This document shows positions 30,031-50,791 of a stretch of 64,000 nt of DNA, in pieces. The translations under genes were made by a program, and so were the position numbers. Under the pieces are notes generated by a model. The model did no database searches, was not told the origin of the DNA, and saw only the letters and a list, made by a program, of their open reading frames with translations. Source of the stretch: a virus. The stretch lies in the IMG/VR virus record IMGVR_UViG_3300047281_000029, positions 1 to 64,000 of that record; one strand, written 5' to 3'. Each line of letters starts with the position of its first letter. Positions within the stretch are counted from its first letter, which is position 1.

Positions 30031-30055
30031 ATTACTTTTCTTTTCATGCTTAAAG

Positions 30056-30082
30056 GCGCTCTTTTACGGGGCGCTTTTTTTT
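30056..30082 (+). terminator. Terminator
   Basis: GCGCTC pairs with GGGCGC (one G-U) around a 7-base loop, followed by eight T. A promoter box follows 2 bases later. Confidence 0.85.
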
Positions 30083-30084
30083 AT

Positions 30085-30092
30085 TATCTTTG
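30085..30092 (+). promoter_or_regulatory. Promoter -7 box TATCTTTG of the ring-protein operon
   Basis: Lies 16 bases before the ATG at 30109 and immediately after a terminator, so the ring and tail genes are a separate transcription unit. Confidence 0.65.
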
Positions 30093-30108
30093 TAAAAAGT
30101 TTTTAAGA

Positions 30109-30798
30109 ATGATAAACTCAGTAAGAAATACTGTGCTGTCTGTAGCTAACAAGAATAATTTTGGGTATATTACTCCGGATGACTTCAACTTGTATGCTAA
30201 GCAAGCTCAATTAGATATATTTGAAGACTACTTCTATCAGTATAATACATGGATACTAAAGCAGAACGCTAGACAGTCAGGAAGCGGATACGCTGATATT
30301 GTAAAGAACGTAGAAGAGGTTATTGATAGCCTATCTTCAACAGCCACATTGACATACTCGTCTCCTACATTTAATTTACCTAGTGATTTTTACTATTTAA
30401 ATACAGTAAGATACGGATCAAAAGAAATTGACAGGGTATCACAAGATAAGATACTTAATCTACTTTCATCTAATCTAACATCTCCGTCGGTACTTTATCC
30501 TGCGTATATCTTAGAGGGTGACAGTATCAAGGTATACCCAACATCTATAGTCTCAAATGTTAGTACTCAGTACATTAGATACCCTAGGGATCCTAAGTGG
30601 ACGTATACTTCATTACTAGGAGGAGAGCCGTTGTTTAATCAATCAGCATCTGACTATCAGGACTTTGAATTACCACTAACAGACGAGCCTTTACTAACGG
30701 CTAAGATACTTCAGTTCGCTGGTATATCTATTAGAGAAGCAGATGTATTCTCATTCGGAACAAGTGAAGAAGTTAAGAATCAACAAACTCAAGGATAA
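30109..30798 (+). CDS. Head-tail ring (adaptor) protein 1, 229 aa
   Basis: Start chosen at MINSVRNTVLSVANKNNFGY, downstream of the promoter; an upstream in-frame Met lies in the terminator. Helical N-terminus with PDDFNLYAKQAQLDIFEDYF, then LPSDFYYLNTVRYGSKEIDR and a beta part. Adaptors of crAss-like phages have this layout (YxTPxxFNxyAxxAQ...LPxDfyyl), and they sit below the portal. The pair with the next gene fits the two-ring neck of these phages. Confidence 0.75.
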   Translation: MINSVRNTVLSVANKNNFGYITPDDFNLYAKQAQLDIFEDYFYQYNTWILKQNARQSGSGYADIVKNVEEVIDSLSSTATLTYSSPTFNLPSDFYYLNTVRYGSKEIDRVSQDKILNLLSSNLTSPSVLYPAYILEGDSIKVYPTSIVSNVSTQYIRYPRDPKWTYTSLLGGEPLFNQSASDYQDFELPLTDEPLLTAKILQFAGISIREADVFSFGTSEEVKNQQTQG

Positions 30799-31723: not shown

Positions 31724-34700
31724 ATGGCAAATATTGATGTAAATTTTATTGCCGGTAGAATGAACAAAGATTTTGACGAGCGTGTAGTTCCTGCTGGGGA
31801 GTACATTGACGCGTTAAATATCAGGGTAGGATCTACTGAGAACAATAGTGTAGGTGCTGTAGAAAATACCAAGGGTAATATAAAATTAACAAGCCTTCAA
31901 TACAACGGAGTTCCTCTAGTAGGAGCTAGATGTATTGGTGCATACGAGGACGGATCTAACGAGACATTATACTGGCTTGTAACATCTGCCACTGTTGATA
32001 TGGTGGTGTCTTTTAATACAGAAAAGAGCTTACTAAAGTACCACGTTGTATCTGAGGATGTACTTAACTTTGATCCTGAGTACTTAGTAACTGGTATTAA
32101 CTTAATTGATAACCTATTATTTTGGACGGACAACTTAAATCCGCCTAGAAAAATAAATATAAATAGAAACTACCCAGAACCAATAGGTGGGGTAGATCAA
32201 ATTGATGAGAGTGATATATCTGTGATAGTTGCTCCTCCATCATCTGCACCTGAAATTTCACTATTACTTGTTCCTAGAGAAGAAAATTATATGACTAATA
32301 AGTTCATATCATTTGCTTATAGATATAAGTATAAGGATGGAGAGTACAGTGCACTATCTCAATTTAGTGATATAGCATTTGAACCAGGTGGTTTTGGTCT
32401 TGATTACTCTACATTTGAGAATTCAGGAATGGAGAACATATTCAACTCTGTTAATGTAAAATTTAATACAGGAAGTGATAATGTTGTAGGTATAGATATC
32501 TGCTTTAAACTATCAGACTCTAGCGTGATAAATGTTGTAGAAAAATACAATAAATCTCAAGAGGGATGGGCTGATAACAAAACTGAGCAGATTACATTTA
32601 CAAATAAAAAAGTATATACTACCCTTACAGAGAGTGAACTTCTTCGTGTCTTTGACAACGTTCCTAGATTAGCTAAGGCACAAACTGTTATGGGTAACAG
32701 GTTAATGTACGGAAACTACGTCGACGGATATAATATTACAGATGAATATGGTAATCAAATAGATATTGATTACGATCTTGATTTAATGTCTGAGAACATT
32801 GGTTTTGTTGAGTTACCAGTTTCTCTAGATACTGGATCAAATTATACTATAGATCCTTCTAGTACTAAGACTATAAACGATGCTCAATTCAATATAGACT
32901 TGACAGGTGTGCCTCTAATTAGTGGATCATATCTTTCAATTAATATAACATTACAGCACGAATCATATTCTGGAGATGCTTCATATACAAATCCACCTAG
33001 AAATGATTTTGAATACGACTTAGTATTTAATATTCAAAAGAACTATAGTAGCGTATATGAGTTAGCTACTAGTCAAGAATTTATAGATGCAATATCAACT
33101 CATAAAGTATACGCTGACGCGTGCACTGGTACATCGGTAACAGATGCTTTTAACTGTCAGATAATTGCAAAATCAGGATGGACTGAAATAGGAACTGGTA
33201 TAATTGATGCTACAGGAAGTTTTACAATATCATCATCTTTAGGTTCTGATATAATTAGTATTCAAATTCCAGCTATAAAGTTTGGATTTGAAACATCTCC
33301 TGGTGTGTTTGTATATGCTTATGAGTACCTTTCAAATACCAACACTTCCGCTAGTTTTTCAGCTATAGGTTCTAATCGGAGTCTTCATAGTAACAGAGAT
33401 TACGAGGTAGCTATTGTGTATATGGACGAATATAGTCGTAGCTCTACTGCCTTAGTAGATACTAATAATACAATTTTTGTTCCTCCATATAATTCAGATA
33501 AAAAGAATTACATAAGAGCAAGCATAAAAAGTAAAGCTCCAAGCTGGGCTACTAAGTATAAGTTTGTAGTAAAACCATCTAAGAGTCAGTACCAAGTTGT
33601 ATACTCTAATGTTTTCTTTCAAGAAGATTCTGGTTTTACTTGGTTTAAATTAGAAGGTGATAATAGAAGTAAGGTTCAAGAGGACTCAACTTTAATTGTT
33701 AAGGCCGACTCTAACGGAGTTATGAAGAGCTTAATAAAAACTAAGGTTCTTGCTCTAGAGGCTCAACCTAGAGACTTTATTAAGGATAATAAGAATTCAG
33801 CAGGTCAAGATATTATAGAGCCAGCAGGGATGTATATGAGGCTTAAGGCTTCTAACTTTTCATCAGAATATACTGAGAATTCATTTATAGATGAAGGGGA
33901 GATAAGTGAAGCTGGAAGTTATGCTAATTTAAATTACCCTTGCTATATAGATAATCCATTATTTGGACAAGCTGGAGAATTACAATTTGCTCCTTACGAT
34001 ATACCTGCTGGAAGTTTAATAAACATTAACTTTACATTAACCAGAGATGCGGCCGGAGATAGTTGTGGTAATAGAACGTACGTGTTTAATAAATCATTTA
34101 CAGCATCTCAATACTACACTAGTTTGTATAACTTTATAATAGGTGATCAAATCAATTTAGAAGCTGGAGATAGCACTGGAGGTGACGCTACAGTAAATAA
34201 GAACGACTTTAATAAAAACTTAGTTAGTCCTTACACAGGAAATATTAATGCTATACCTGGTACTAACCAGTACGAATTCCAATATGATACGACAAATGGA
34301 AGATTATTCTTTGTAATTAAGAGTGGTACTCCTAACTGTAGTGGAAAGAAATCAAGAGTTATTTGCCATATACAGGTACAAAGAACCGAATCATTAATTG
34401 TATTCGAAACAGAAGCTGCCGATGCTAACGATGAGACTTATTTTGAAGGAAGTGAATCATTTGATATTATCAATGGTTATCATCAAGGTAACGTTACTAA
34501 TCAGTCATCTGGAATTCCAGCTGTAGTTGATTTAAACTTTTTTGACTGCTTTTCGTTTGGTAATGGAGTTGAGAGTTATAAAATTGGAGACTCGTTAACT
34601 GGAGCTCCGTTTTATTTAGGAAGTAGGGTTACTGCTGTTTCTCAAGAAGAATTTAAAGAAGCACATAGATACGCTGGAATAACATACAGCGGAATATATA

Positions 34701-37700
34701 ATGAAGAGACTAATGTAAATAAATTAAATGAATTTAATTTAGCGTTAGCAAACTTTAAGGACTGTGAGAAATCATTTGGTCCAATTAATATACTTCACGG
34801 AAGAAAAACAGACGTACTTACATTACAAGAGGATAAGATATCTTATGTATTAGCCGGTAAGAATTTACTTTCTGATGCAGCCGGAGGAGGAGCTATCACG
34901 TCTGTACCTGAGGTTCTTGGTACACAAATATCTAGAATTGAAGAGTTTGGTATTAGTAATGACGCTGCTAGTTTTGCTTCATGGGGAGAGGATATATACT
35001 TTACAGATACCAAAAGAACATCTGTTATTAATTTAAAGGGAGGCGCTTCTCAATCTGATAACTTAATTCCTATATCTAGACTAGGTATGAATGGATGGTT
35101 TAGAGATAACTTTAAAAATAAAATAAACTATCAAAAACTTGGTGGATATGATCCTTACTTAAAGGAGTATGTTTTATCTGTTAATGATGAAAAATTACCA
35201 GCACCTATTGAAACATTTGACTGTGGATTCACTGTATCTCAGGATGGATCTAATGAAGAGTTAAAGTTTAATTTAGAGTACGGTAAGATTATAGGTGAGG
35301 CTTCTTTTGATTATAACTTTGAAAGCGGATCAGCTCATATACTTGTACAGTATAATGGAGAAGTTGTTATAGATGATGAAATATCTGGATCTGGTTCTGT
35401 TTCATTTAATAAGGACATAATTAATCCTACATCCGCATTAGTTACTATAACTCCTTACTACGCTACATATAATATTTTATCAAACTGTGTTGAATCAGAT
35501 CAGATAACTGTTATTAGAATTGTAGTTAACTCACCATCAAATGAAGGACAGACTACTCATAATAATTATAACTGGTCACTTAACGGATATAATAGTCCTA
35601 CAAATATTGACTTTGTATTATTAGAGTCTGACGGAGTATCTCTTTATCAGTCAATTACTGGTCCAGTATCTGTGGGTGTTATACCTTCATTTGGCAGTAC
35701 AATTAAAATGCAGTCTGATAAATACATTACGGATACGTTTGATTTTGATCCTGCATCTAATTCTCTTAAATATTTAGTATCTGATACTTTATATACAGAA
35801 TCAGACATAAATACACTAAGACCTTTATTAAATACAGCTACACCTATAATAAATCCATCTAGTGGTAAATTTGAATCTTCATTTGTTTATAACAATCCAA
35901 GTAAGCTTCAGTACCTTTATTTAGTTTGGGATTTATTAAATGCTTACAGCGTTGGATTATGTTACAGCGATATAAGCGGAGAAGATGCTTGTATTACTTG
36001 TATACCAGTTAACTGTGAAGTATCAGAATGGTCTGAGTGGTCTGATTGTATTGACGGAGTTCAAACAAGAACTAGAACAGTTGTTGTTCCTGCTGAAAAT
36101 GGAGGTACTGAATGTCCATCGTTAATAGATACAAGAATTTGCGGATATGATATAGATCTTTGTTACGACGATTTAAGCGCTCAGTTGGCTTGTAACTGCG
36201 GAGTACCAACTGTAAATTGCGAGGTTTCTGCATGGTCTGAATGGTCTGAATGTATCGATGGTACTCAGAGCAGAACTAGAACAATTGTAGTTCCACCTAC
36301 AGGTGGTGGTAATTCATGCCCGCCTTTAACAGAGACAAGGGACTGTGTTCCTGTAGTTAACTGTCAAGTATCTGAGTGGTCAGAATGGTCTACGTGCGAT
36401 GACGGATATCAGTCTAGAACTAGAACTGTTATAGTTCCGCCATCTGGTGGAGGTCAAGCTTGTCCTGAATTATCAGAAACACGTACTTGCTCAAGCATAA
36501 ACATAACAAACGCATCATGTAACAATGAAAACGGTAGTACTGTCACAAAAAGATTTACTATAGCTATTGGTAATGCTCCTGCAACATACACAATTGAAAC
36601 CGGAACAGTTGTTAATCCAGCTGGTCTAGAGTATACTATATCTTCTGCTCCTGGTAATTCATTTATACAGATTGTATTTATGCCTGCTGTTACTTACGGT
36701 AATGAATTCTCTATTGAATTATTATTGAAAAATTCAACAGGGGCTGTTGTAGGTACAAATGTTACACAAACTGTATACGGAAATTACGAAAGCTTTTTAC
36801 CATCTTGTACCCCAGTAAACTGTGTAGTTTCTGAGTGGTCTGCTTGGTCAGATTGTGTTGATAATGTATCTACAAGAACACGTACTATTATTACTCAACC
36901 TAGCGGTGGAGGAGAAGCATGCCCTACTCTTACAGAGTCAAGGGATTGTGCAAACTGTGAAGTATCAGAATGGTCTGCTTGGTCTACATGTTCAGACGGA
37001 CTTCAAACTAGAACAAGAACAATTGTGACTGAACCATACAACGGAGGTACTGCATGTCCTACATTATCTGAAACAAGGACATGTTCAGGAATAGATATAA
37101 CAGATACGATATGTAATTCGGATGGAGGAAGTACTATTACTAAGAGATTTAGAATAGCATTAACTGACGCTCCTGCTACTTACACTATTGTGGCTGGCTC
37201 TGTAATTAATCCTGCGGGTCTTGAGTACTCTATAGTACCTACTCCTGGAGATGCTTACATACAGGTTGCATTTAAACCTGCACTTACTTATGGAAATGAG
37301 TTTTCTATTCAATTACTATTAAAGAATTCTACAGGTGTTACTGTAGGTATGAGTGGTACAGAGACGTTATATGGTAACTACCAAAGCTTCTTACCATCAT
37401 GCTTCCCTGTTAACTGTGTAGTGTCTGAATGGTCTGAATGGTCTTCATGTGTTAATAACGTTTCTACAAGAACTAGAACTATTATTACTCCAGCTTCAGG
37501 CGGAGGAACACCTTGTCCAGTATTGACAGAATCAAGAGACTGTGCAAACTGTGAGGTTTCAGCTTGGTCAGATTGGTCAGCCTGTACTGATGGTTTAGAG
37601 ACAAGAACAAGAACGGTAATTACACAACCATACAATGGAGGTACAGCGTGCCCTATATTATCAGAGACAAGAACTTGTTCAACCATAGCTTTAACAACTA

Positions 37701-39139
37701 CAATATGTAATACTGATGGTGGTAGCACCATTACCAAAAGGTTTAGAATATCTATCGGTAACGCTCCTGCAACATATACTATTCAAGCTGGAACTGTAGT
37801 TAATCCTGCTGGATTAGAGTACTCAATAGTGCCTACTCCTGGTGATTCTTATTTACAAGTTATATTTAGACCTTCAGTTACTTACGGTAGCGAGTTCTCT
37901 ATAGAATTATTATTGAAAAATTCTACTGGAATAACAGTTGGTACTAATGTTAGTCAAACAGTATATGGTAACTATCAGAGCTTCTTACCTTCTTGCTTTC
38001 CTGTAAACTGTGTGGTATCTGAATGGTCAGCATGGTCAGATTGTATTGGAGGAACTCAAAGTAGAACTAGAACAATTATTACTCAGCCTAGTGGAGGTGG
38101 AACTCCTTGTCCTCCTTTATCAGAGACAAGAGACTGCCCTGTAGATTGCGTTGTATCTGAATGGTCAGCGTGGTCAGATTGCGTTGGAGGAACTCAAAGT
38201 AGAACTCGTACAGTAATTACACCAGCTATTAATGGCGGAACTCCATGCCCAGTATTATCAGAGACAAGAGATTGTCCTGTAGACTGTGTTGTTTCAGAAT
38301 GGTCGGCCTGGTCAGCATGTTCTGATGGTTTAGAGACTAGAACACGTACAGTAATTACTCCAGCTATTAACGGAGGTACTCCTTGTCCAGTATTGTCAGA
38401 AACTAGAACATGTTCAGGAATAACCCTAACAAGCACTATATGTAATACTGACGGTGGAAGTACTGTTACTAAAAGGTTTAGAATAGCATTAACTAATGCT
38501 CCTTCAACATATACTATTGTTGCTGGAACAGTAAACAACTACGCTGGACTAAACTACTCTATAGTAGCTACTCCTGGGGATTCTTACTTACAAGTAGAAT
38601 TTAAACCTTCAATTACGTATGGTAATGAGTTTTCTATTCAGTTATTGTTGAAAAACTCTACCGGTACAATAGTAGGTGAAAGCAGTCTTCAGACTGTTTA
38701 TGGAAATTATCAAAGTTTCTTACCTGGTTGTTATCCTGTTAACTGTCAAGTTTCAGCTTGGTCTGAATGGTCAGCTTGTGTTGATGGCATAGAGACAAGA
38801 ACAAGAACTATCATAACTCATCCTTCAGGCGGAGGAGAGCCTTGCCCTCCTTTAACAGAAACTAGAGGATGTTATGTGCCACCAACAAGTTATCCTTTTA
38901 CATTCTCTGTTAGTTCAAGTTATGATTTCTTTGAATCTTGTCTTTTCTATGATATGGGATTAACTTTATGGGGAGCAAGTGATAGCTTATCTTATATGAT
39001 GAGTAACGGACTTGCTTTATATGAAGATCAAAACTTAACAATTCCTTTTGATGGACAAAATAAATTTAGAAGTACTGGTGATGGGTTTACTTGGTCGATA
39101 GATTCAAACGGAATAATTACAGGATTAGAAAATTGTTAA
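31724..39139 (+). CDS. Giant tail stabilisation protein with eleven TSP1 modules, 2471 aa
   Basis: Residues 6-60 (NFIAGRMNKDFDERVVPAG, then EYIDALNIRVG) are the hallmark of the stabilisation/tail protein found below the rings in crAss-like phages. Residues up to about 1425 are beta-propeller-like and structural (ISRLGMNGWFRDNF near 1120). From about 1428 to 2385 come eleven thrombospondin type 1-like modules (CxVSxWSxWSxC...RxRT...C) interleaved with four copies of a 100-residue beta domain ending YGNYQSFLPSC. The C-terminus has LYEDQNLTIPFDGQNKF. TSP1 modules are typical of animal extracellular proteins and rare in phages. They probably project outward and bind the host surface (inference). 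Confidence 0.85.
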   Translation: MANIDVNFIAGRMNKDFDERVVPAGEYIDALNIRVGSTENNSVGAVENTKGNIKLTSLQYNGVPLVGARCIGAYEDGSNETLYWLVTSATVDMVVSFNTEKSLLKYHVVSEDVLNFDPEYLVTGINLIDNLLFWTDNLNPPRKININRNYPEPIGGVDQIDESDISVIVAPPSSAPEISLLLVPREENYMTNKFISFAYRYKYKDGEYSALSQFSDIAFEPGGFGLDYSTFENSGMENIFNSVNVKFNTGSDNVVGIDICFKLSDSSVINVVEKYNKSQEGWADNKTEQITFTNKKVYTTLTESELLRVFDNVPRLAKAQTVMGNRLMYGNYVDGYNITDEYGNQIDIDYDLDLMSENIGFVELPVSLDTGSNYTIDPSSTKTINDAQFNIDLTGVPLISGSYLSINITLQHESYSGDASYTNPPRNDFEYDLVFNIQKNYSSVYELATSQEFIDAISTHKVYADACTGTSVTDAFNCQIIAKSGWTEIGTGIIDATGSFTISSSLGSDIISIQIPAIKFGFETSPGVFVYAYEYLSNTNTSASFSAIGSNRSLHSNRDYEVAIVYMDEYSRSSTALVDTNNTIFVPPYNSDKKNYIRASIKSKAPSWATKYKFVVKPSKSQYQVVYSNVFFQEDSGFTWFKLEGDNRSKVQEDSTLIVKADSNGVMKSLIKTKVLALEAQPRDFIKDNKNSAGQDIIEPAGMYMRLKASNFSSEYTENSFIDEGEISEAGSYANLNYPCYIDNPLFGQAGELQFAPYDIPAGSLININFTLTRDAAGDSCGNRTYVFNKSFTASQYYTSLYNFIIGDQINLEAGDSTGGDATVNKNDFNKNLVSPYTGNINAIPGTNQYEFQYDTTNGRLFFVIKSGTPNCSGKKSRVICHIQVQRTESLIVFETEAADANDETYFEGSESFDIINGYHQGNVTNQSSGIPAVVDLNFFDCFSFGNGVESYKIGDSLTGAPFYLGSRVTAVSQEEFKEAHRYAGITYSGIYNEETNVNKLNEFNLALANFKDCEKSFGPINILHGRKTDVLTLQEDKISYVLAGKNLLSDAAGGGAITSVPEVLGTQISRIEEFGISNDAASFASWGEDIYFTDTKRTSVINLKGGASQSDNLIPISRLGMNGWFRDNFKNKINYQKLGGYDPYLKEYVLSVNDEKLPAPIETFDCGFTVSQDGSNEELKFNLEYGKIIGEASFDYNFESGSAHILVQYNGEVVIDDEISGSGSVSFNKDIINPTSALVTITPYYATYNILSNCVESDQITVIRIVVNSPSNEGQTTHNNYNWSLNGYNSPTNIDFVLLESDGVSLYQSITGPVSVGVIPSFGSTIKMQSDKYITDTFDFDPASNSLKYLVSDTLYTESDINTLRPLLNTATPIINPSSGKFESSFVYNNPSKLQYLYLVWDLLNAYSVGLCYSDISGEDACITCIPVNCEVSEWSEWSDCIDGVQTRTRTVVVPAENGGTECPSLIDTRICGYDIDLCYDDLSAQLACNCGVPTVNCEVSAWSEWSECIDGTQSRTRTIVVPPTGGGNSCPPLTETRDCVPVVNCQVSEWSEWSTCDDGYQSRTRTVIVPPSGGGQACPELSETRTCSSINITNASCNNENGSTVTKRFTIAIGNAPATYTIETGTVVNPAGLEYTISSAPGNSFIQIVFMPAVTYGNEFSIELLLKNSTGAVVGTNVTQTVYGNYESFLPSCTPVNCVVSEWSAWSDCVDNVSTRTRTIITQPSGGGEACPTLTESRDCANCEVSEWSAWSTCSDGLQTRTRTIVTEPYNGGTACPTLSETRTCSGIDITDTICNSDGGSTITKRFRIALTDAPATYTIVAGSVINPAGLEYSIVPTPGDAYIQVAFKPALTYGNEFSIQLLLKNSTGVTVGMSGTETLYGNYQSFLPSCFPVNCVVSEWSEWSSCVNNVSTRTRTIITPASGGGTPCPVLTESRDCANCEVSAWSDWSACTDGLETRTRTVITQPYNGGTACPILSETRTCSTIALTTTICNTDGGSTITKRFRISIGNAPATYTIQAGTVVNPAGLEYSIVPTPGDSYLQVIFRPSVTYGSEFSIELLLKNSTGITVGTNVSQTVYGNYQSFLPSCFPVNCVVSEWSAWSDCIGGTQSRTRTIITQPSGGGTPCPPLSETRDCPVDCVVSEWSAWSDCVGGTQSRTRTVITPAINGGTPCPVLSETRDCPVDCVVSEWSAWSACSDGLETRTRTVITPAINGGTPCPVLSETRTCSGITLTSTICNTDGGSTVTKRFRIALTNAPSTYTIVAGTVNNYAGLNYSIVATPGDSYLQVEFKPSITYGNEFSIQLLLKNSTGTIVGESSLQTVYGNYQSFLPGCYPVNCQVSAWSEWSACVDGIETRTRTIITHPSGGGEPCPPLTETRGCYVPPTSYPFTFSVSSSYDFFESCLFYDMGLTLWGASDSLSYMMSNGLALYEDQNLTIPFDGQNKFRSTGDGFTWSIDSNGIITGLENC
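36000..38875 (+). repeat. Array of TSP1-coding repeats and interleaved beta-domain repeats
   Basis: Eleven modules of about 43-45 residues, each with C-x-VS-x-W-S-x-W-S-x-C, an RTRT segment, a GG-x-x-CP turn and E(S/T)R-x-C. Order (T = TSP1, D = beta domain): TTT D TT D TT D TTT D T. Three adjacent modules at about 38009-38420 are nearly identical in DNA with a 138-141-base period, pointing to recent duplication. Confidence 0.85.
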
Positions 39140-39683: not shown

Positions 39684-40430
39684 ATGGCATATACATTATC
39701 ATTTAGCGAAGACTCAAAAGGATGGACGTCATTCTTCTCTTTCATACCAGAGAAGATGATCGGCATGAACTCGTACTTCTACACATTTAAAAACGGTAAC
39801 TTATATAGACATAACTCTAATAATACTAGAAACAATTTCTATGGAGTTCAGTACAATTCTAAATTAACAGGGGTATTTAATGTTGAGAACGGAATGGTAA
39901 AGAACTTCAAGACAGTGTCATTAAATAGTGACGACTCTTGGAGTTGTAATATTGTTACAGACTTAGATACTGGTTTTATAGACAAGTCGTACTTTACATT
40001 AAAGGAAGGAGACTACTTTGGTTATGTAAGAAGGTACGCATCAGATGACAACTTATCTATGAGATCTGCTCAGGGTATTGGTAACATATTAAGCGTTAAC
40101 TCAACAAATCCATCTGCAGTTGTTATGACGTTTAGTTTTGGAATTGGAAGTATTATAAATGCAGGTGATACTGTATATAAAAATAATGCAGGTGCCCTTT
40201 TAAAGTTAGGAACTATTGTTTCTGTATCTACCAACTCTATTACGATAAACACGTCTATAACAGGAGGAAATATTCCTTCGGCATCTGACTATGTATTGTG
40301 CCTTAAAGATAGCACAGCGGAGTCGTATGGAGCTAGAGGATACTACATGCAGTTTGAGTTGGAGAATGATAAGACGTCAAGGGTTGAATTGTTTTCAGTA
40401 GGAAGTAGCATTTTTAAAAGTTACCCATAA
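39684..40430 (+). CDS. Tail/muzzle-region structural protein, 248 aa
   Basis: Starts MAYTLSFSEDSKGWTSFFSF. FSE..KGWTSFFSFIPEKMIGMNSYFYTFKxGxLYxHN is a strongly conserved pattern in virion proteins of Bacteroidota and marine phages. The rest is beta-rich (VSTNSITINTSITGGNIPSA). No catalytic motif. Likely a distal tail component assembled with the stabilisation protein. Confidence 0.75.
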   Translation: MAYTLSFSEDSKGWTSFFSFIPEKMIGMNSYFYTFKNGNLYRHNSNNTRNNFYGVQYNSKLTGVFNVENGMVKNFKTVSLNSDDSWSCNIVTDLDTGFIDKSYFTLKEGDYFGYVRRYASDDNLSMRSAQGIGNILSVNSTNPSAVVMTFSFGIGSIINAGDTVYKNNAGALLKLGTIVSVSTNSITINTSITGGNIPSASDYVLCLKDSTAESYGARGYYMQFELENDKTSRVELFSVGSSIFKSYP

Positions 40431-41624: not shown

Positions 41625-43106
41625 ATGGCAGAGTACTTAGGATATGTAAATCCAGCTGAAACTAAAGCTAACCCAACACTGGACTGGTCTACAGTTATTA
41701 ATGATGTTAGGGATACTTTAGCTAGTCAAGAGGCTACTAGAAAGGCTACTAGACAAAAAGCAAAGCAAGAAACTAACGACTTATATAATTCGTTAAATAA
41801 AATTTCCTCTGGTCAAAACCAGGGGTTAAATGGTTTTATAACAAATGCTAGCTACCAATCTAAGAACCTACTTGGAGAGGCGTATAAATTATACACGTCT
41901 GGAAAAATAAAAGGAAAGGAATATACTGAAATACAAAATAATATGAAGGCATCCTTTAATGACATCAATGATGTTGTTAAAACCATGCAGACTGATTATG
42001 AAAAGTATATGGACTTATTAAGTAAAGGACAGACCTCAATTATAGATGAGTATAATCAAAAGCAAAAGGGAGAGTTCTTAGACTTAAGCAACAAAGAGTT
42101 TTATGTTGATCCATTAACTGGTAGAGGTTATATTGGTAAGATTGTTGATGGTAAAATAGATCAGTCTAGCTTACAGCCACCAGCTTGGATAAAAAATAAC
42201 GGATCTACATTTATTGGAAAAGTTGATATTCCTAAAGAAATAGCTCCTTATACTAAGGATCTTGGTAAGTTTCAAGAAATTATAAGTAAGCCACCTGCAG
42301 GAGGAATATGGACTATTGAAGACGCAAGCAAGCGTCCTGGTTTTGGAGATTGGCTAGAAAAAACAGCTACTATCATTGCTTCAAATCCTTACAAGATGAC
42401 TACTATTTTAGGTCAGGTAGGTGATTATAATTTAGTAGATGATCCAAAGCAGGCTAGTAAAGATAAAATATTAATGCAAAAGGATTCTTCTACTGGAATG
42501 AATACTCCTATGCTTACTAAAGAACAAGAGGAAGCCGCTAAGAATGTTATTAAAGAAAATATACTTCAACAAGTAAACAGTACGCTTAAGCAAGAAGAAA
42601 ACACATACAGAGCCCCTGTTAGAAGTGGAGGTTCTGGAGGATCTGGAACACCTTCAAACACAAGTCCTAAATCTATTCAGCATACAGTAGATGCAAAAGG
42701 AAATTTAATAGTTCCAATGTCAGGTGTTAATGTTAAAACAGGATCAATTACAGAAAATATATCTGACTGGGGTAAAATTGCTGATAATGGAAAATTATTT
42801 ATAAGCTATAGTTACCCTGTAACTACAAAGGATGAGGATGGAAATTCTGTAAGAACTACTAAATCTGTACAAGTATACGAAGGTAGTAATGAATTCAACA
42901 GAAGATTAGGTCAGCTTGTAAATCCTTCTACTGGTAAAAAAGTAAAAAGTTTAAATGAGGCTAAACAATATGTTAACTCATTAGGAGGCGGAAATACTTC
43001 AAAAAATAACTCTGAGTATACAAACCTAACAGAAACAAATAAGGGTACTCTTGGTTTGAAAAATGGAAAATGGTACAATATTAAAACAGGTAAAATAGCA
43101 CAATAA
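41625..43106 (+). CDS. Internal virion protein, 493 aa
   Basis: Starts MAEYLGYVNPAETKANPTLD. It has a long helical N-terminal half (RKATRQKAKQETNDLYNSL) and a middle part (KEFYVDPLTGRGYIGKIVDG). A Gly/Ser-rich linker (RSGGSGGSGTPS) near residue 337 and a beta C-terminus ending NGKWYNIKTGKIAQ follow. Its stop overlaps the start of the 2561-residue gene. Likely packaged inside the head and ejected with it. No enzyme motif recognised. Confidence 0.65.
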   Translation: MAEYLGYVNPAETKANPTLDWSTVINDVRDTLASQEATRKATRQKAKQETNDLYNSLNKISSGQNQGLNGFITNASYQSKNLLGEAYKLYTSGKIKGKEYTEIQNNMKASFNDINDVVKTMQTDYEKYMDLLSKGQTSIIDEYNQKQKGEFLDLSNKEFYVDPLTGRGYIGKIVDGKIDQSSLQPPAWIKNNGSTFIGKVDIPKEIAPYTKDLGKFQEIISKPPAGGIWTIEDASKRPGFGDWLEKTATIIASNPYKMTTILGQVGDYNLVDDPKQASKDKILMQKDSSTGMNTPMLTKEQEEAAKNVIKENILQQVNSTLKQEENTYRAPVRSGGSGGSGTPSNTSPKSIQHTVDAKGNLIVPMSGVNVKTGSITENISDWGKIADNGKLFISYSYPVTTKDEDGNSVRTTKSVQVYEGSNEFNRRLGQLVNPSTGKKVKSLNEAKQYVNSLGGGNTSKNNSEYTNLTETNKGTLGLKNGKWYNIKTGKIAQ

Positions 43107-46100
43107 TGGAAGAATTAAATAAAATAACCCCTCCACTACCTAGTGGGTACGAGCCTATTAAAAAACAAAATTCTTCTACACCTCCACTACCTAGTGGATA
43201 CGAGCCTATATTAAAAAAAAAAGGATCTACTCAGCTTACTTCTCAAGAAAGTCTGTGGGGGTCAAACTCACAACCGAAAGATGCGTATACTTCATTGGCT
43301 ATAGATCAACAGCTACCTCAACAGGGATCGGATGTTTCAAATGGAGAACAACCTAAGCCTATATTAAAAGGACTTCCAAGTGTAGAGTCGTTTAAAAAGA
43401 AATCTATACAACCTAAAAAAGAAGTAAAAGAAATAATCAAAGATGTTGTTCCTAAAGTTACAAAGGCTATATCTATAGAAAAAGGTAAAGAAGATTTTTC
43501 TGAAGCAACTCAAAAAGCTAGGAAAGAATCTAAGTCCTTAGTAGATAAAAAACAAATAGATCAAAAAATATCTCAAGTAAGTAATCTTCAGAATGAATAT
43601 GCTAAGTCTTTAAAAGACATTGAATTAGCAAAAAAAACATTATCTGATGAGAAAGCAGAAATAGATTATCAATTATCTATTGGTAATAATGCTCCGGAAT
43701 TTAAAGAAAGAGTTGCTCTTCATAACCAAAAGGTTCAAGAAAACCTAGATAAGTTTAACTTATTAAAGAATAAGTCTGAAGTTATTAATTACAACAAAAA
43801 AGTAATAGAGTCTGCATCTGGGAACTTACTTAGAAGCAAAGCAGAACAAGGTAACTGGTTCGGAGCTATTTATAATAAAATGCTACAGAGCGCTAGCTCT
43901 ATGGCTTCTGGAGCTGTATCTAAAGTTACAGATTTAATTGCTGAAGTTGTTCCTTCTGAGTACTTAATAGGACCTAAAGAACTAAAAAAACTACAAGACA
44001 AGGGATTAAGTCAAAATCAAATAGATGACTACATAAAAAAGTCGGCTAAAAAAGACGTGTTGCCAGCTATAAGAAAGGGTAACGTTGAGTTGTTTGGAGA
44101 TAAAGGAACTACAGAAGAGTACATAAAGAAAAAAGAATCTTCAGGATTAATTGAAGGAGGAGTACTAGGTCTTGCTGGTTCTGTACCTGCAATGTTAGGT
44201 GGTGTATATGGAAGAGCTACTAATTTTTTCCTTATGGGATCAGATGCTGTTGAACAAGAAATGGAATCTAATCCTGACTTTCAAAACATAAGCGAAAATG
44301 AAAAGCTAGCTGTTATAGTACCTATAGGTATTGCTAATGCTGTTCTAGAAGAGTTTGGTCTTCAAGGAGTTATGAAGAATAACTCGTTAGTAAATAACTT
44401 AGTTCATAAAACATTACTAAAGGTTGGTGCTGATGCAAGCGCTAGTACTTTTAAAAGGGCTATGAATAATGAAATAAAGAGCGGAATTGCAGCTGGTATA
44501 TTTAAAGTTGGTTCTGGTTTTACATCTGAAGCTATAACTGGAGGATCTCAGCAGGCTGCTGAAATAGGTATTAAGGATATATATAATGTAGTTAAGGATA
44601 AGAAGATGTTTCAAACACCTGAAACATTATCTGATGCTGTGTCTCAAATATCTGATGCCGCTATAATGGAGGGTATTGGAGGTACTGTTATGTCTACACT
44701 TCCAGCTATTAATACTGCTATGCAGAATAATGAGTTAGGTAAAAAGTCTACTGATTTTGAATTTGAAATACTAGATAATATAAACGAGAATTCAGAAGAA
44801 TTTAAAAAGTTATTTACTACTGACTTAAAAAATAAAATGATCGAAGGAAAGATTACTAAGGATGAGGCTGAGTCTCAACTTAAGTCCTTCGATAAGATGA
44901 CTGCTACCTTTAATAGAATGCCTAAGGACATGTCTATAGAAGACAAGAAGAAGTCTTTTGATTTATTGGTTGAAAAGGATAAGCTTACTGATGAAATAAA
45001 CGGAAAGGACGAGAGCTTATCTACTAAACAAAAGGAAAGAATATCTGAAATAAACAACGAACTATCTAACATATCTTTAGGTGTAAAGCCAAAAGAAGAA
45101 GTTAAAACAGAAGAGGTTGTTACAGAAAATAAACCTAAAGAAACAGCTACAGCACAAGCATACGTTGAGGAGCTTACTAAAACAAAGGAATCAGACCCTG
45201 AAACATACTGGTCTGTAAGTGAAGTGTCTGCTGAAGACGCTGCTAAAGGAACAATTATAGACACTACTGATGGATCTGCTTTGGTTAAACCTGACGGTGA
45301 TATAGCTGGTTTATTTAAAAAACCAACATCTAATGCTAAGGGAGTTGCTCAGGACTTATTAAGCAAGGCAGTTGAGGCTGGAGGTACTAAGTTAGATAAC
45401 TTTGATGGATACCTTACAAAACAATATGAGAAGGCTGGATTTAGAGTAGCTTCTAGAACTCCATTCAATGAGCAATACGCTCCAGAAGGATGGAATAAAG
45501 AAAAGCACGGTACTCCAGATGTTGTTGCTATGGTTTATGATCCTAACAACCAGATAGACATAGAAGAAAAAACATTTGAAGATTACGATCAAGCTATTGA
45601 ATATAGAGATGGACTTGTTGATCAAGTAAAAACAGAAGTAAGCGATACTCAGCAATTAATTGATGAGAGTGAAAAGTCAAATGATTTACCTTTGTTAGTT
45701 GAAAAAGCAAAGACTGCTTTGTCTAAAGTACTACCTAATGTTCAAGTTATATTGCACAATACAGATGCAGAATATAAGGCAGCTGTTGGTGAGTCTTTAA
45801 GTAGCGGAACATATGTAGATGATGTTATTCATGTTAATCCTTCAAGAGCTAATGGTAGAACTGTAGCTCACGAGGTGTTTCATGCTGTACTTTTAAATAA
45901 AGTAAAGACTGATCCAGAAGCTCAAAGGATTACAGCTAAAATGATTACTTCTGTAGAAAAATCATTGCCTGACGATATGAAACTTAAGCTACAACAATTT
46001 GTAGAAGAAGGTTATAATAGTCAAGAAGAATTATGGGATGAAGAAAAATTAGCTGAACTTATTGGTTTCTTGGCTGACGGATATCCTTCTCTTTCTAAAC

Positions 46101-49100
46101 CAACTCAAAATGTAATTAAACAGTGGATAGATCAGTTAGCTAAGTTGTTTGGTTTAAAAGAATTTACAGATGCTGATGTTGTTGACTTTATGAATACACT
46201 ATCTGGTAAAGTTGCTAGTGGAGATGTTTTAACTGAGTCAGATATTAAAATATTACCTGGAGGAGAAAAGATATCTAATCCATTTGATTATTTTAAAAGA
46301 AAGCAGGTAGGTGCGTTTGACGTTCAATATACTGAACAAGAAAAACTAGATCAATTAATAAAGGATAAGTTAGTTACCAAACCTGAAAACTTAGATTTTT
46401 TATCTGGAAAAGAAACTTCTATTACATCTCCTGATGATATGCTTGCTGGTACCATAAGTATAGACGGAAAAGAAATATTTGAAGGTGGTGGTGGTGTTTT
46501 CTTTGTTACTAAGTACGGGGATGTTTGGGCTTCTGGTAATAAAGGAACTGCAAATACATTAGCTAGATCTATAAATAATTCTTATAAGAAGAATGGAGAT
46601 AAGGGATATTTAGTTTTAGCTAAGGGTTCAGATTCTAAATTAATAAGCAGTGCTTCAGGAGTTAATTCAAGCTTAGCTGTTTTAGATTCAATGATTGATA
46701 AAGGACTTATAAGCCCTTCTGATTTTAGATCAGCAGTTTCTGAGTCTATCAAAAGGTTTGGAGGTAATATATCTTTAAATGGTAGTGCAAAGCAATTAAA
46801 AGAAGATGTTAATAATTACTTCTCTGATCCAAAATCTTCTACATTTGAAGTTAGAGGAAGCGTACTTGGAAGTATAATAAACTCATTGGCTAAGTCAAAA
46901 AATACAAAGCTAAATAAGGATAAGATAATTGAATTCCTTGGAGGAGATAAAAATAAAGGATTAGTAGCTTTAACAACTAAAGAAAATAAATCTAAAAACC
47001 AATCTTTATCTGACCTTATATCTGGAGTTGCTGCTGAGCAATTGACAAAGGGATTAAATGTAGGAGATGTTTACGCAGTTATAGAAGTTGATGGTGAGGT
47101 TATGGTTAAAGAGGATTCTCATCCTAGCTATCCATTCCATATTGTTCCTGTAGGAAAAAATAAACCTGTTCTTCACTTACCTAAGACTAGACAAAATGGT
47201 GCTGAATTACTAACTACTTCAACAGGTAAGCCTTATAAAGTAGGTCAGGTATCCATAATGTCAGGATCATTTAACGGTCCTGTTAGAAAACAAATTATAG
47301 GTGAGAAAGCTATTAAGGACAAGTTAGTTCAAGATAACTTAGATGTAGCCAAGAAGATGGAAGCTGAGAATAAATCAGCTAAAGACATATTTGTTGCTAC
47401 TGGATGGGAAAAGGGAGCTGATAAGAAGTGGAAGTATGATTTGCAGGAAGGTGTTGTTGAGATTAAATCTAAAAAATCTGGCAAGGCATCTGATGTTTTA
47501 AATTACCCTGAACTTTTCAAGGCATACCCTAAAGCTAAGGACTTGGATATTGTGTTTATGAATAGCGACAAGTTCGAAGGTATGTACCTTCCTAGTAAGA
47601 ACAGAATAATGATATCATCTGATCTATCTGACGCTGAGTCAACTAGTACTTTACTTCATGAGTTACAACACTTTGTACAGCACCAAGAAGGATTTGCTGT
47701 AGGTGGTCAAGCTAGGTTAATTAGAGATTTATATAACGAAAGAATTAAGTACGAAAAAAACTTTAGTGTTAAGAAGGTACTTAATAATATTAAGAATTCT
47801 TTATTTGGATCTAATAAAAACGAAGCTGACACTAAAAAAGAATTAGATAAGTTAGGTAAGTTAGTTAGTAAGGTTGATGAAGATCTTTATAGATCTATAG
47901 CTGGAGAGGTAGAAGCATTTAATGTAGAGAAGAGATCTACAATGACTGCCGAACAAAGAAGAGCTACTCCTATATCTGAAACCGCTGACGTACCAGTAGA
48001 GGAGCAATTAGTTGTTTCTGATTCTGATACAATGTTAAGAGATAGAAAACAATCCTCTCTTCCTATTGCTAGGCTTAAAAAAGAAGGAAAGACAGATAGA
48101 CAAATATCAAAATTTTTACAGTCTAAAGGTCTTACTGTTGAGAAAGCTACAGAAGCAATCCTTAATTACAATAAGGAAAAAATGAAGATGCTTCAGAAGG
48201 AAGAAGGAATATTTACTAGAGACGGTAGGAACAAAGTAATTACTGCCTTAGATAGTTTTAAAAGAATGTTCCTATCTGCTAAAGCATTCTTAGGAAAGTC
48301 TGCATTTATAGCTAAAGAAAACATAGAGGCTGGAATTAAAGCTCAGTCTAAGATAGCTTCTTATTTAGTTAACGATCTAGATGTAGCTATTAAGAATTAT
48401 GATGGAGATAAAGAGAAAGTAATATCAGACTTTGATAAATTTGTAAGAGGTGAAGAGGTAGAACTTCCTGATAATTTCTTAGAAATAGGAAATGCAATGA
48501 GGGATCATATTGATAAGCTATCTTATGAACTTATAAACTCTGGAATTGTAGATGAGTATCAGGCTGAAAATATTCGTAAGAATATAGGAACATACTTAAC
48601 TAGATCTTATGAGGTATTTGATAAGAAGAACTGGGCAGAGAAGGTAGATCAAGAGGTTCTACAGGCTGCTAAGAATTTCCTAAAAAAGCAATTACTTAGT
48701 GAAGCTACTAAAGAAGCTAAGAGAAATGGTCTAGATGTTAAGTCTGTTTTAGAAAATAAAGTTGATTTAGCTATTAATGATTTAATAGATAGAGAAGGAG
48801 CTCAATCATTTATATCTTCTGGTAAAACAGGATCTAAGGATGTATCTATACTAAAACAGAAGACAGATATTCCTTTTGAAATTAGAGCTTTGATGGGTGA
48901 GTACACTGATCCTGCTCAGAATTATTCTAGAACAATATTTAAGATAGCTTCATTAATAAATAACGCTAAGTTTTTAAATACTGTAAGGGATAATGGTATA
49001 GGAGTTTATTTGTTTGAAAAGAACGATATAAATAGACCTAAAGAATTTGATACTTTAATAGCAGCTGAGGGAAGTGAAACCATGAATCCATTAAACGGAT

Positions 49101-50791
49101 TATATACCACTAAGGAAATAGCTGGATCATTAAAGGAGTCTGCTGGAATATTAAATAGTATTGAAGTAGCACTTCCATTCGAAGTATCTAGTACAGTTAA
49201 GAGTACATACGAATACTATATGAAGCTTTTGAGTACTGTTAAGTGGCTTAAAACTGTTGGATCTGTAGGTACTCACTTTAAAAACGTTTCTGGTAACATT
49301 ACATTTATGTTGGCTAATGGATACTTTAAACCTGATGAGTATAGAAAATCAGCTCAGGTTATACACAATGACTTTTTTAATAAGACCGACAAGGAATTAA
49401 GAGAAAAGATGCAAGAGTATGTTGATGCTGGTATTGTTGATCAGAGTGCTGTACTTGGAGAGTTAAGATCAATGTTTAAGGATGCTGATTTTGATAAGAC
49501 TTTTGAAAGAAGAATGAACAGTGAAGAATTAAACCCTTCTAAAAAATTCATTGATAAAGTAAAAAGATTAGGAAAGAAAGGTGCATCGTTAGCTGAAAAT
49601 GCTTACCAGGCAGAGGATGATTACTTCAAGGTAATCTCTTATGAAACTGAAAAGGGTAGATACGCTAAGGCTATGTACGGAAAGGAATACTCTAAGCTAA
49701 CAGAGAACCAGCAGGACGACGTAAGAAAGTATGTTACAGAGATAACAAAGAACGTACTTCCTAACTATGGACGTGTACCTGGAGCTGTTAAATTAGTCAA
49801 AGCCTTCCCTGTTGTAGGAACATTTATTTCGTTCCAGACAGAGGCTCTTAGAACAGCGTACAACATTGTTAACTTATCGGTTACTGAATTGAAGTCAAGC
49901 AATCCTGATATTAAAAAAATAGGTGCGTTAAGAATGGCTGGTATTATATCTTCTCAGGCAGTTAAGTATGCTATGATGTATTTAATAGGTGGAGCTGTGC
50001 TTGGAGATGATGATGATGAGAAAAAGGAAAAGGCTAAACGATTTGTTGCTCCTTGGTCTAAGAACTCTAACATCTTAATTAAGAACGAAGGAGATGGTAA
50101 GTTTAGTTATATTGACTTTAGCGCTTCTGATCCGTTTGGAGGAATAGTTAAACCTATTAACGCTATGATGGCAGGAGAAGATATGTTAGATGGTTTTATA
50201 GAAGGTGTTAAGGAGTTAGTATCTCCGTTTACAAATCCAGACATACTTAAGTCTATGTTTACTGAAATATCAGAAAACAAGGATGCTTACGGAAATCCAT
50301 TATACAATCCGTCTGATAGTTTTGAAAAGAAATCAGAGGCTATACTTTCTAGAGTTTACAAAACTTTTGAGCCTGGTACAGTTTCCTCTGTTAGAAAAAT
50401 AGCAGAATCTGATGGAGCTTTAAATGAGATGGCTGGTCAGTTTACTGGATATAAAGCTAAGGATCTTGACTTACAAAAAGAGTTCTCTTTTAAAATTTCA
50501 GACATGAAAAAAAATGAGATTGAAGTTAGAAATATATACAACAAGGCTTATAATAAATTTGAAAGAAAAGAAATTTCTAAAGAAGAATTACAAGAGGCTT
50601 ATAATCAATCTAATAAAGAGTCTAAAAAACTATATGAAGAATTTAAAAAAGATTACGATGCCGCTATATACTTTGGGACAGATGCAAAAATTCTTAAAAA
50701 GCAAATGAAAAGAGCTCATGTGTCTAAAGCTATAATTAGATCTATCCTTACTGGAAAGTTCAAGGATATGGAGAAAAAAAAGATGAAATAA
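43106..50791 (+). CDS. Giant internal virion protein with two HExxH protease-like sites, 2561 aa
   Basis: Starts with two copies of PPLPSGYEPI (near residues 8 and 23). Two metalloprotease-like motifs occur: AHEVFHAVLL near 921 and LLHELQHFVQHQEGF near 1516. Between and around them are domains of the large polyvalent protein type (family knowledge): phage proteins that carry many small effector or enzyme domains into the cell. A hydrophobic segment (AVKYAMMYLIGGAVLG, about 2290) precedes an acidic turn, then a coiled-coil C-terminus. It probably leaves the head first at infection, as in short-tailed phages. It has no clear RNA polymerase motif, unlike the giant proteins of true crAss phages. 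Confidence 0.75.
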   Translation: MEELNKITPPLPSGYEPIKKQNSSTPPLPSGYEPILKKKGSTQLTSQESLWGSNSQPKDAYTSLAIDQQLPQQGSDVSNGEQPKPILKGLPSVESFKKKSIQPKKEVKEIIKDVVPKVTKAISIEKGKEDFSEATQKARKESKSLVDKKQIDQKISQVSNLQNEYAKSLKDIELAKKTLSDEKAEIDYQLSIGNNAPEFKERVALHNQKVQENLDKFNLLKNKSEVINYNKKVIESASGNLLRSKAEQGNWFGAIYNKMLQSASSMASGAVSKVTDLIAEVVPSEYLIGPKELKKLQDKGLSQNQIDDYIKKSAKKDVLPAIRKGNVELFGDKGTTEEYIKKKESSGLIEGGVLGLAGSVPAMLGGVYGRATNFFLMGSDAVEQEMESNPDFQNISENEKLAVIVPIGIANAVLEEFGLQGVMKNNSLVNNLVHKTLLKVGADASASTFKRAMNNEIKSGIAAGIFKVGSGFTSEAITGGSQQAAEIGIKDIYNVVKDKKMFQTPETLSDAVSQISDAAIMEGIGGTVMSTLPAINTAMQNNELGKKSTDFEFEILDNINENSEEFKKLFTTDLKNKMIEGKITKDEAESQLKSFDKMTATFNRMPKDMSIEDKKKSFDLLVEKDKLTDEINGKDESLSTKQKERISEINNELSNISLGVKPKEEVKTEEVVTENKPKETATAQAYVEELTKTKESDPETYWSVSEVSAEDAAKGTIIDTTDGSALVKPDGDIAGLFKKPTSNAKGVAQDLLSKAVEAGGTKLDNFDGYLTKQYEKAGFRVASRTPFNEQYAPEGWNKEKHGTPDVVAMVYDPNNQIDIEEKTFEDYDQAIEYRDGLVDQVKTEVSDTQQLIDESEKSNDLPLLVEKAKTALSKVLPNVQVILHNTDAEYKAAVGESLSSGTYVDDVIHVNPSRANGRTVAHEVFHAVLLNKVKTDPEAQRITAKMITSVEKSLPDDMKLKLQQFVEEGYNSQEELWDEEKLAELIGFLADGYPSLSKPTQNVIKQWIDQLAKLFGLKEFTDADVVDFMNTLSGKVASGDVLTESDIKILPGGEKISNPFDYFKRKQVGAFDVQYTEQEKLDQLIKDKLVTKPENLDFLSGKETSITSPDDMLAGTISIDGKEIFEGGGGVFFVTKYGDVWASGNKGTANTLARSINNSYKKNGDKGYLVLAKGSDSKLISSASGVNSSLAVLDSMIDKGLISPSDFRSAVSESIKRFGGNISLNGSAKQLKEDVNNYFSDPKSSTFEVRGSVLGSIINSLAKSKNTKLNKDKIIEFLGGDKNKGLVALTTKENKSKNQSLSDLISGVAAEQLTKGLNVGDVYAVIEVDGEVMVKEDSHPSYPFHIVPVGKNKPVLHLPKTRQNGAELLTTSTGKPYKVGQVSIMSGSFNGPVRKQIIGEKAIKDKLVQDNLDVAKKMEAENKSAKDIFVATGWEKGADKKWKYDLQEGVVEIKSKKSGKASDVLNYPELFKAYPKAKDLDIVFMNSDKFEGMYLPSKNRIMISSDLSDAESTSTLLHELQHFVQHQEGFAVGGQARLIRDLYNERIKYEKNFSVKKVLNNIKNSLFGSNKNEADTKKELDKLGKLVSKVDEDLYRSIAGEVEAFNVEKRSTMTAEQRRATPISETADVPVEEQLVVSDSDTMLRDRKQSSLPIARLKKEGKTDRQISKFLQSKGLTVEKATEAILNYNKEKMKMLQKEEGIFTRDGRNKVITALDSFKRMFLSAKAFLGKSAFIAKENIEAGIKAQSKIASYLVNDLDVAIKNYDGDKEKVISDFDKFVRGEEVELPDNFLEIGNAMRDHIDKLSYELINSGIVDEYQAENIRKNIGTYLTRSYEVFDKKNWAEKVDQEVLQAAKNFLKKQLLSEATKEAKRNGLDVKSVLENKVDLAINDLIDREGAQSFISSGKTGSKDVSILKQKTDIPFEIRALMGEYTDPAQNYSRTIFKIASLINNAKFLNTVRDNGIGVYLFEKNDINRPKEFDTLIAAEGSETMNPLNGLYTTKEIAGSLKESAGILNSIEVALPFEVSSTVKSTYEYYMKLLSTVKWLKTVGSVGTHFKNVSGNITFMLANGYFKPDEYRKSAQVIHNDFFNKTDKELREKMQEYVDAGIVDQSAVLGELRSMFKDADFDKTFERRMNSEELNPSKKFIDKVKRLGKKGASLAENAYQAEDDYFKVISYETEKGRYAKAMYGKEYSKLTENQQDDVRKYVTEITKNVLPNYGRVPGAVKLVKAFPVVGTFISFQTEALRTAYNIVNLSVTELKSSNPDIKKIGALRMAGIISSQAVKYAMMYLIGGAVLGDDDDEKKEKAKRFVAPWSKNSNILIKNEGDGKFSYIDFSASDPFGGIVKPINAMMAGEDMLDGFIEGVKELVSPFTNPDILKSMFTEISENKDAYGNPLYNPSDSFEKKSEAILSRVYKTFEPGTVSSVRKIAESDGALNEMAGQFTGYKAKDLDLQKEFSFKISDMKKNEIEVRNIYNKAYNKFERKEISKEELQEAYNQSNKESKKLYEEFKKDYDAAIYFGTDAKILKKQMKRAHVSKAIIRSILTGKFKDMEKKKMK

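Follow-up and report, generated by a model that had tools for sequence, protein, structure and literature searches.

Thrombospondin type 1 (TSP1) repeats are a classic module of animal and apicomplexan adhesion proteins, including those of malaria parasites, and the question raised by the present locus is whether an uncultured, aquatic-type phage really carries a long array of them, on which virion protein and to what end. The locus lies in a stretch of viral DNA of 64,000 nucleotides (positions 1 to 64,000 of IMG/VR record IMGVR_UViG_3300047281_000029), referred to here as the window. An earlier note, made from the sequence alone, had described eleven TSP1 modules with regular cysteines, interleaved with four copies of a beta domain of about 100 residues, and had placed them on the host-binding side of a phage tail protein. 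What the note had seen is confirmed in its coordinates and counts, with the correction that each module has four cysteines and not the canonical six.

Identity and predicted fold of the modules

The array is encoded within an open reading frame of 2471 aa (Table 1). The eleven modules fit the pattern CxVSxWSxWSxC...RTRT...GGxxCPxLxxxRxC. In Pfam searches, TSP1_spondin (PF19028) matches the ORF with an E-value of 4.7e-137 and 11 stretches, and TSP_1 (PF00090) with an E-value of 2.8e-40 and 9 stretches. Taken alone, each module scores 48-57 bits against a cut-off of 41, so chance or low complexity is excluded, and the residues that form the WxxW and RxR layers (W6, W9, R19 and R21) are invariant in all eleven. 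The order is three TSP1 modules, a beta repeat, two TSP1, beta, two TSP1, beta, three TSP1, beta and one TSP1. The four beta repeats, of about 97 aa, are 61-77% identical to each other and to a fifth copy located in the next ORF. Copies are only 58-80% identical in DNA, which makes them old and rules out an assembly stutter. Eukaryotic contamination or a chimera was likewise rejected, as the array lies in frame within a gene whose flanking genes are syntenic with MW202828 and elemo phages, and close phages repeat it.

An AlphaFold2 model of a TSP-TSP-beta-TSP unit (window 37415-38140) has a mean pLDDT of 80, with about 87-95 in the first two TSP1 modules, 62-90 in the third and 62-80 in the beta repeat. 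Structural alignment with VIA places the modelled TSP1 parts within 1.2-1.9 Å of solved repeats, among them thrombospondin-1 (1lsl, 1.7 Å over 45 residues), complement C9 (8b0g_H, 1.2 Å over 48), UNC5A and Toxoplasma MIC2 (1.3-1.5 Å over 43; 42-46% identity). The Z values, near 6, are limited by the small size of the module. Properdin structures are the top Foldseek hits. The beta repeat gave only generic Ig- or cadherin-like matches (Z about 5), at a level that may reflect only a common arrangement; it matched no database family and was found only in this phage group. The earlier note had held that its reading would fail if profile searches gave no TSP1 hit and structure prediction showed another fold; the profile hits are strong and the predicted fold is that of TSP1. 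The note's interpretation is therefore supported, while its "phage tail protein" is sharpened below and binding remains an inference.

Table 1. Position of the array, its carrier and other features in the window.
Position	Strand	Feature	Evidence
31724-39139	+	Muzzle-type tail protein, 2471 aa: conserved body plus TSP1/beta-repeat appendage	PF19028 and PF00090; phrog_14478 on aa 7-1403; fold match of the body model to phiCrAss001 gp44
31724-35932	+	Conserved muzzle body, aa 1-1403	Homologues in at least 565 viral contigs; profile and fold match to gp44
36014-36142	+	TSP1 module 1	Pattern and profile
36218-36346	+	TSP1 module 2	Pattern and profile
36362-36490	+	TSP1 module 3	Pattern and profile
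36491-36820	+	Predicted beta-sandwich repeat 1	Alignment of repeats
36821-36949	+	TSP1 module 4	Pattern and profile
36956-37084	+	TSP1 module 5	Pattern and profile
37082-37414	+	Predicted beta-sandwich repeat 2	Alignment of repeats
37415-37543	+	TSP1 module 6	Pattern and profile; modelled
37550-37678	+	TSP1 module 7	Pattern and profile; modelled
37676-38008	+	Predicted beta-sandwich repeat 3	Alignment of repeats; Ig/cadherin-like in the model
38009-38137	+	TSP1 module 8	Pattern and profile; modelled
38147-38275	+	TSP1 module 9	Pattern and profile
38285-38413	+	TSP1 module 10	Pattern and profile
38411-38743	+	Predicted beta-sandwich repeat 4	Alignment of repeats
38744-38872	+	TSP1 module 11	Pattern and profile
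38873-39136	+	C-terminal cap domain of about 85 aa, of unknown family	Sequence; its start is also seen after the last TSP1 module of contig L010
39165-39668	+	Small downstream gene, 167 aa: short N-terminal domain plus a fifth beta repeat in its C-terminal half	Alignment of repeats
39684-40430	+	Separate gene with the crassvirus muzzle C-terminal domain (crAss_MUZ_C, PF25729)	E 3.9e-12
30046-30798	+	Virion structural protein two genes upstream of the muzzle gene; position fits a tail ring/adaptor protein	phrog_14543, E 9.5e-44; SU10_adaptor only below cut-off, E 0.0046; ring protein gp43 precedes gp44 in phiCrAss001
7446-9050		GroEL-type chaperonin, also annotated in MW202828 and elemo phages	PF00118
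15215-19201		1328-aa protein ending in a Peptidase_S74 intramolecular chaperone, a likely classical tail fibre	Domain match
43106-50791		2561-aa protein with LPD23 and a metallopeptidase-like domain, typical of large polyvalent or injected virion proteins; two similar 51-bp repeats at its start	Domain matches

A crass-type muzzle homologue with a hypervariable appendage

The body of the carrier matches PHROG 14478, a virion structural protein. Its further identity was revealed only by profile and fold comparison, since a sequence search against PDB sequences found nothing and Pfam, including the muzzle family PF25731, gave no hit. A profile of 32 relatives aligns with the phiCrAss001 muzzle protein gp44 (hhalign probability 90%, E 1.9e-6) over the N-terminal ~200 residues. 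A model of aa 1-1200 (mean pLDDT 72.6, poor after ~990) finds the gp44 structures (PDB 7qok, 7qol) first by a wide margin, with a Foldseek E-value of 2e-12 to 7qol_P and a VIA Z of 15.4, against 8.6 for the next fold. This match to the ring-joining, propeller, Ig and crass-domain fold covers model residues 61-1023 with 403 residues aligned, although the superposition is loose (rmsd 4.9). Structural genes lie upstream in both phages. In gp44 the crAss_MUZ_C domain is the end of the same chain, whereas here it is encoded by a separate gene, for which a phmmer search against PDB sequences found nothing. The protein is thus a muzzle homologue with a split C-terminus, in which the arm sits at the end of the first part. 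Stop-codon recoding was rejected as the reason for the split, because the ORFs end with ordinary TAA/TAG/TGA codons and homologues have the same split. Among named phages, the nearest are MW202828 from Manatee Spring and Elemovirus, Cellulophaga and Tenacibaculum phages; the best named terminase hits are to Elemovirus, Cellulophaga and Tenacibaculum phages (Pachyviridae, Pervagoviridae), and Cellulophaga phage phi13:2 serves as an outgroup to crassviruses in PMC10172136. Phi13:2 gp120 (Baltivirus, Pachyviridae) and Flavobacterium phage elemo gp22 have the same muzzle body at 32-36% identity, with similar local gene order.

Everything after residue ~1403 is hypervariable. Among the nearest relatives, what follows this residue ranges from 3 to 904 residues. 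The comparison of module number, which the earlier note had suggested, gives a range from 0 to 11 TSP1 modules among relatives. In the contigs compared (designated by L numbers), L103-L106 and L141, which are 79% identical to the window in the body, have only 48 residues and no TSP1 (L105 and others are separate contigs); L013 and L062 (79%) have one module, L010 and L011 (90%) eight, L041 (62%) none, and L017 and L019 (34%) ten. Other phages carry different domains at this position, namely a cadherin-like Big_9 domain in phi13:2, a Fib_succ_major domain, which has a lectin-like fold, at the end of the appendage in L122 (12267-13244), and one TSP1 module together with a VWA domain in L062 (7854-8930). 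The last is the domain pair of apicomplexan TRAP/MIC2 adhesins, which contain group-2 TSRs (PMC9019593), but there is no evidence of direct descent and convergence is the simplest explanation.

The array does not follow the phylogeny of the body. Beta repeat 2 of the window is 85% identical to one in L017, whose body is only 34% identical, but at most 69% identical to those of L010, whose body is 90% identical. In DNA, the array aligns with that of L042 over 2.0 kb at 69%, while the two bodies share almost no alignable DNA. Different selective constraint could explain part of this, but not the closer match to the more distant phage. TSP1 modules also occur off the muzzle. The equivalent of the small downstream gene carries one in L012, L017, L019, L028, L059 and the Flavobacterium MAG contig L053, so the cassettes are swapped between neighbouring genes. 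Modules were further found on a tail gene beside the tape measure of a Cellulophaga phi18:1-like siphovirus (L034), on ~500-aa proteins of phages of about 120 kb (L014, L026, L027, L029), and on L031. In all, 50 contigs of 2.9 million were found with these patterns. By contrast, tblastn of the array and of a two-module consensus against 50,697 GenBank phages gave no match even at E 10, albeit with the low-complexity filter on, and no cultured phage was found to have these modules. In 395 Bacteroidota genomes the only hit above cut-off is itself a phage contig (L053), which speaks against a recent gain from the host chromosome. Six-cysteine TSP1 modules occur on bacterial MAG contigs (L048-L056; Desulfobulbaceae, Myxococcales, Phycisphaerales, Nitrospina, Acidimicrobiales) and are a possible source of the phage modules; their core is very similar, and in L051 (Phycisphaerales) and L056 (Acidimicrobiales) even the PVDCVVS linker between modules is shared with the phage arrays.

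Cysteine pairs

Group-2 TSRs pair C1-C4, C2-C5 and C3-C6, according to a review (PMC6096484). Most bacterial modules found here keep all six cysteines (L048-L052, L055, L056), with C3 and C6 in the context WSxCSxxCGGG ... CNTQPC. The modules of the window retain C1, C2, C4 and C5 and lack exactly C3 and C6, which leaves two predicted bonds per module instead of three; they are best described as a four-cysteine variant within the superfamily rather than canonical TSRs. They also lack the CxxS/TC site used for O-fucose (PMC9198472) and, unlike F-spondin-type TSRs, reside in a phage virion protein and not in a secreted or membrane protein. Among 132 distinct modules, C1 and C4 are both present in 130 and both absent in 2 (L077 and the first module of L087), and C2 and C5 are both present in 127 and both absent in 5 (L081, L088, L090, L092, L057), with no discordant case. 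About twenty assignments in shifted or truncated modules were made by hand, and related sequences are not independent, so the P values (1e-4 and 3e-9) are only indicative. Of these sequences, the viral TSP1-like modules of L081, L088, L090 and L092 have only C1 and C4 left, the strands are lengthened by a few residues in L087 and relatives, and the Rickettsiales MAG module of L057 (7389-8297) appears to keep C1-C4 and C3-C6.

A further pair is seen in TSP1-bearing proteins of ~300-590 aa in the large-phage group (L014, L015, L016, L024, L025, L026, L027, L029, L030). All 16 tandem modules with an extra Cys before the GG follow a module with an extra Cys just after C5, while of the 39 tandem modules without it, 35 follow a module without the extra Cys and the four apparent exceptions are true C5 or C6 residues. 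The rule also holds within single proteins that mix both kinds (L024, L029), which relatedness alone does not explain. The simplest reading is an inter-module disulfide, although this particular pair does not occur in the window. The earlier note had inferred disulfides, formed in an oxidising place or after lysis; the paired loss and gain of cysteines supports their formation indirectly.

Possible roles of the array

The explanation favoured here, with moderate confidence, is that the array is a long multivalent adhesion arm on the tail muzzle, the hexameric plug and gate at the end of a podovirus tail. By homology to phiCrAss001, six copies would project up to 66 TSP1 modules and 24 beta repeats as flexible, disulfide-braced arms. 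With ~5.5 nm per TSR (PMC2683937), a fully stretched arm could reach about 60 nm or more, longer than the ~30 nm capsule quoted for a crassvirus host (PMC10172136). In this view, the arms would bind repeating glycans or proteins on the surface of the (probably flavobacterial) host by many weak contacts, holding the tail tip in place before the muzzle opens. In phiCrAss001, the distal crass domain is inferred to contact the cell surface and the tail contains solved disulfides (PMC10172136). The computations establish the identity and predicted fold of the modules, the muzzle body, its hypervariable end, the variation in copy number, the exchange of cassettes and the pairing of cysteines in sequence, whereas the hexamer and arm geometry, disulfide formation in the virion, surface binding and adhesive function, and the host are inferred. 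Some points weigh against this reading. As the body model does not reach residue 1403, the arm could leave the muzzle from the side; the separate S74-containing fibre may be the primary receptor-binding protein; no thiol oxidase was seen in the ORFs scanned; and the small downstream gene shows that the same cassettes are also used off the muzzle.

The rival that survives best, though unlikely, is that the array is a stalk or spacer that binds nothing itself and holds out the cap domain or other receptor-binding domains. The arm indeed ends in a distinct cap, also present in part after the array of L010, tandem TSRs form extended rods, and module number varies without an obvious rule. However, in the 120-kb phages and L034 the modules are combined with different partner domains and no common cap, and other phages carry binding-type folds (cadherin-like, VWA, lectin-like) at the same muzzle position. 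It is also doubtful that the cysteines stay reduced and the modules fold by the Trp/Arg ladder alone, the cysteine pattern being a relic. Phage proteins fold in a reducing cytoplasm and whole pairs are lost in some modules, so not every bond is essential, but the paired losses, the inter-module pair and the solved disulfides of the phiCrAss001 tail argue against it. Slightly less likely still, the arms might bind algal or mucus polysaccharide, so that the phage stays where its hosts graze; the nearest cultured phages infect aquatic flavobacteria, yet the modules sit on the muzzle, at the tail end that must meet the bacterium, and not on capsid fibres. A neutral repeat expansion, suggested only by the changing module number, is very improbable, as the copies are old yet keep W, R, G, P and C positions invariant across the eleven modules and across lineages, which requires selection.

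TSP1 modules, phage adhesins and muzzles are each known, but no paper joining thrombospondin with crAss-like phages or phage tails was found in the literature searched. A broader reading, about as likely as not, is that four-cysteine TSP1 modules are a mobile adhesion cassette exchanged between podovirus muzzles, siphovirus tail proteins and structural proteins of larger phages, forming genuine intra- and inter-module disulfides in virions and giving the tail long multivalent arms for host attachment, a role that TSP1 domains were not known to play in phages. Arrays with a reduced cysteine set that evolves in pairs give a compact natural record of how this fold sheds its predicted disulfides, and provide small modules that are easy to express and test for glycan binding. 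The locus also marks the C-terminus of the crass-type muzzle body as a hypervariable, exchangeable and putatively adhesive site, which suggests where to look for host-recognition parts in a large, mostly uncultured phage group.
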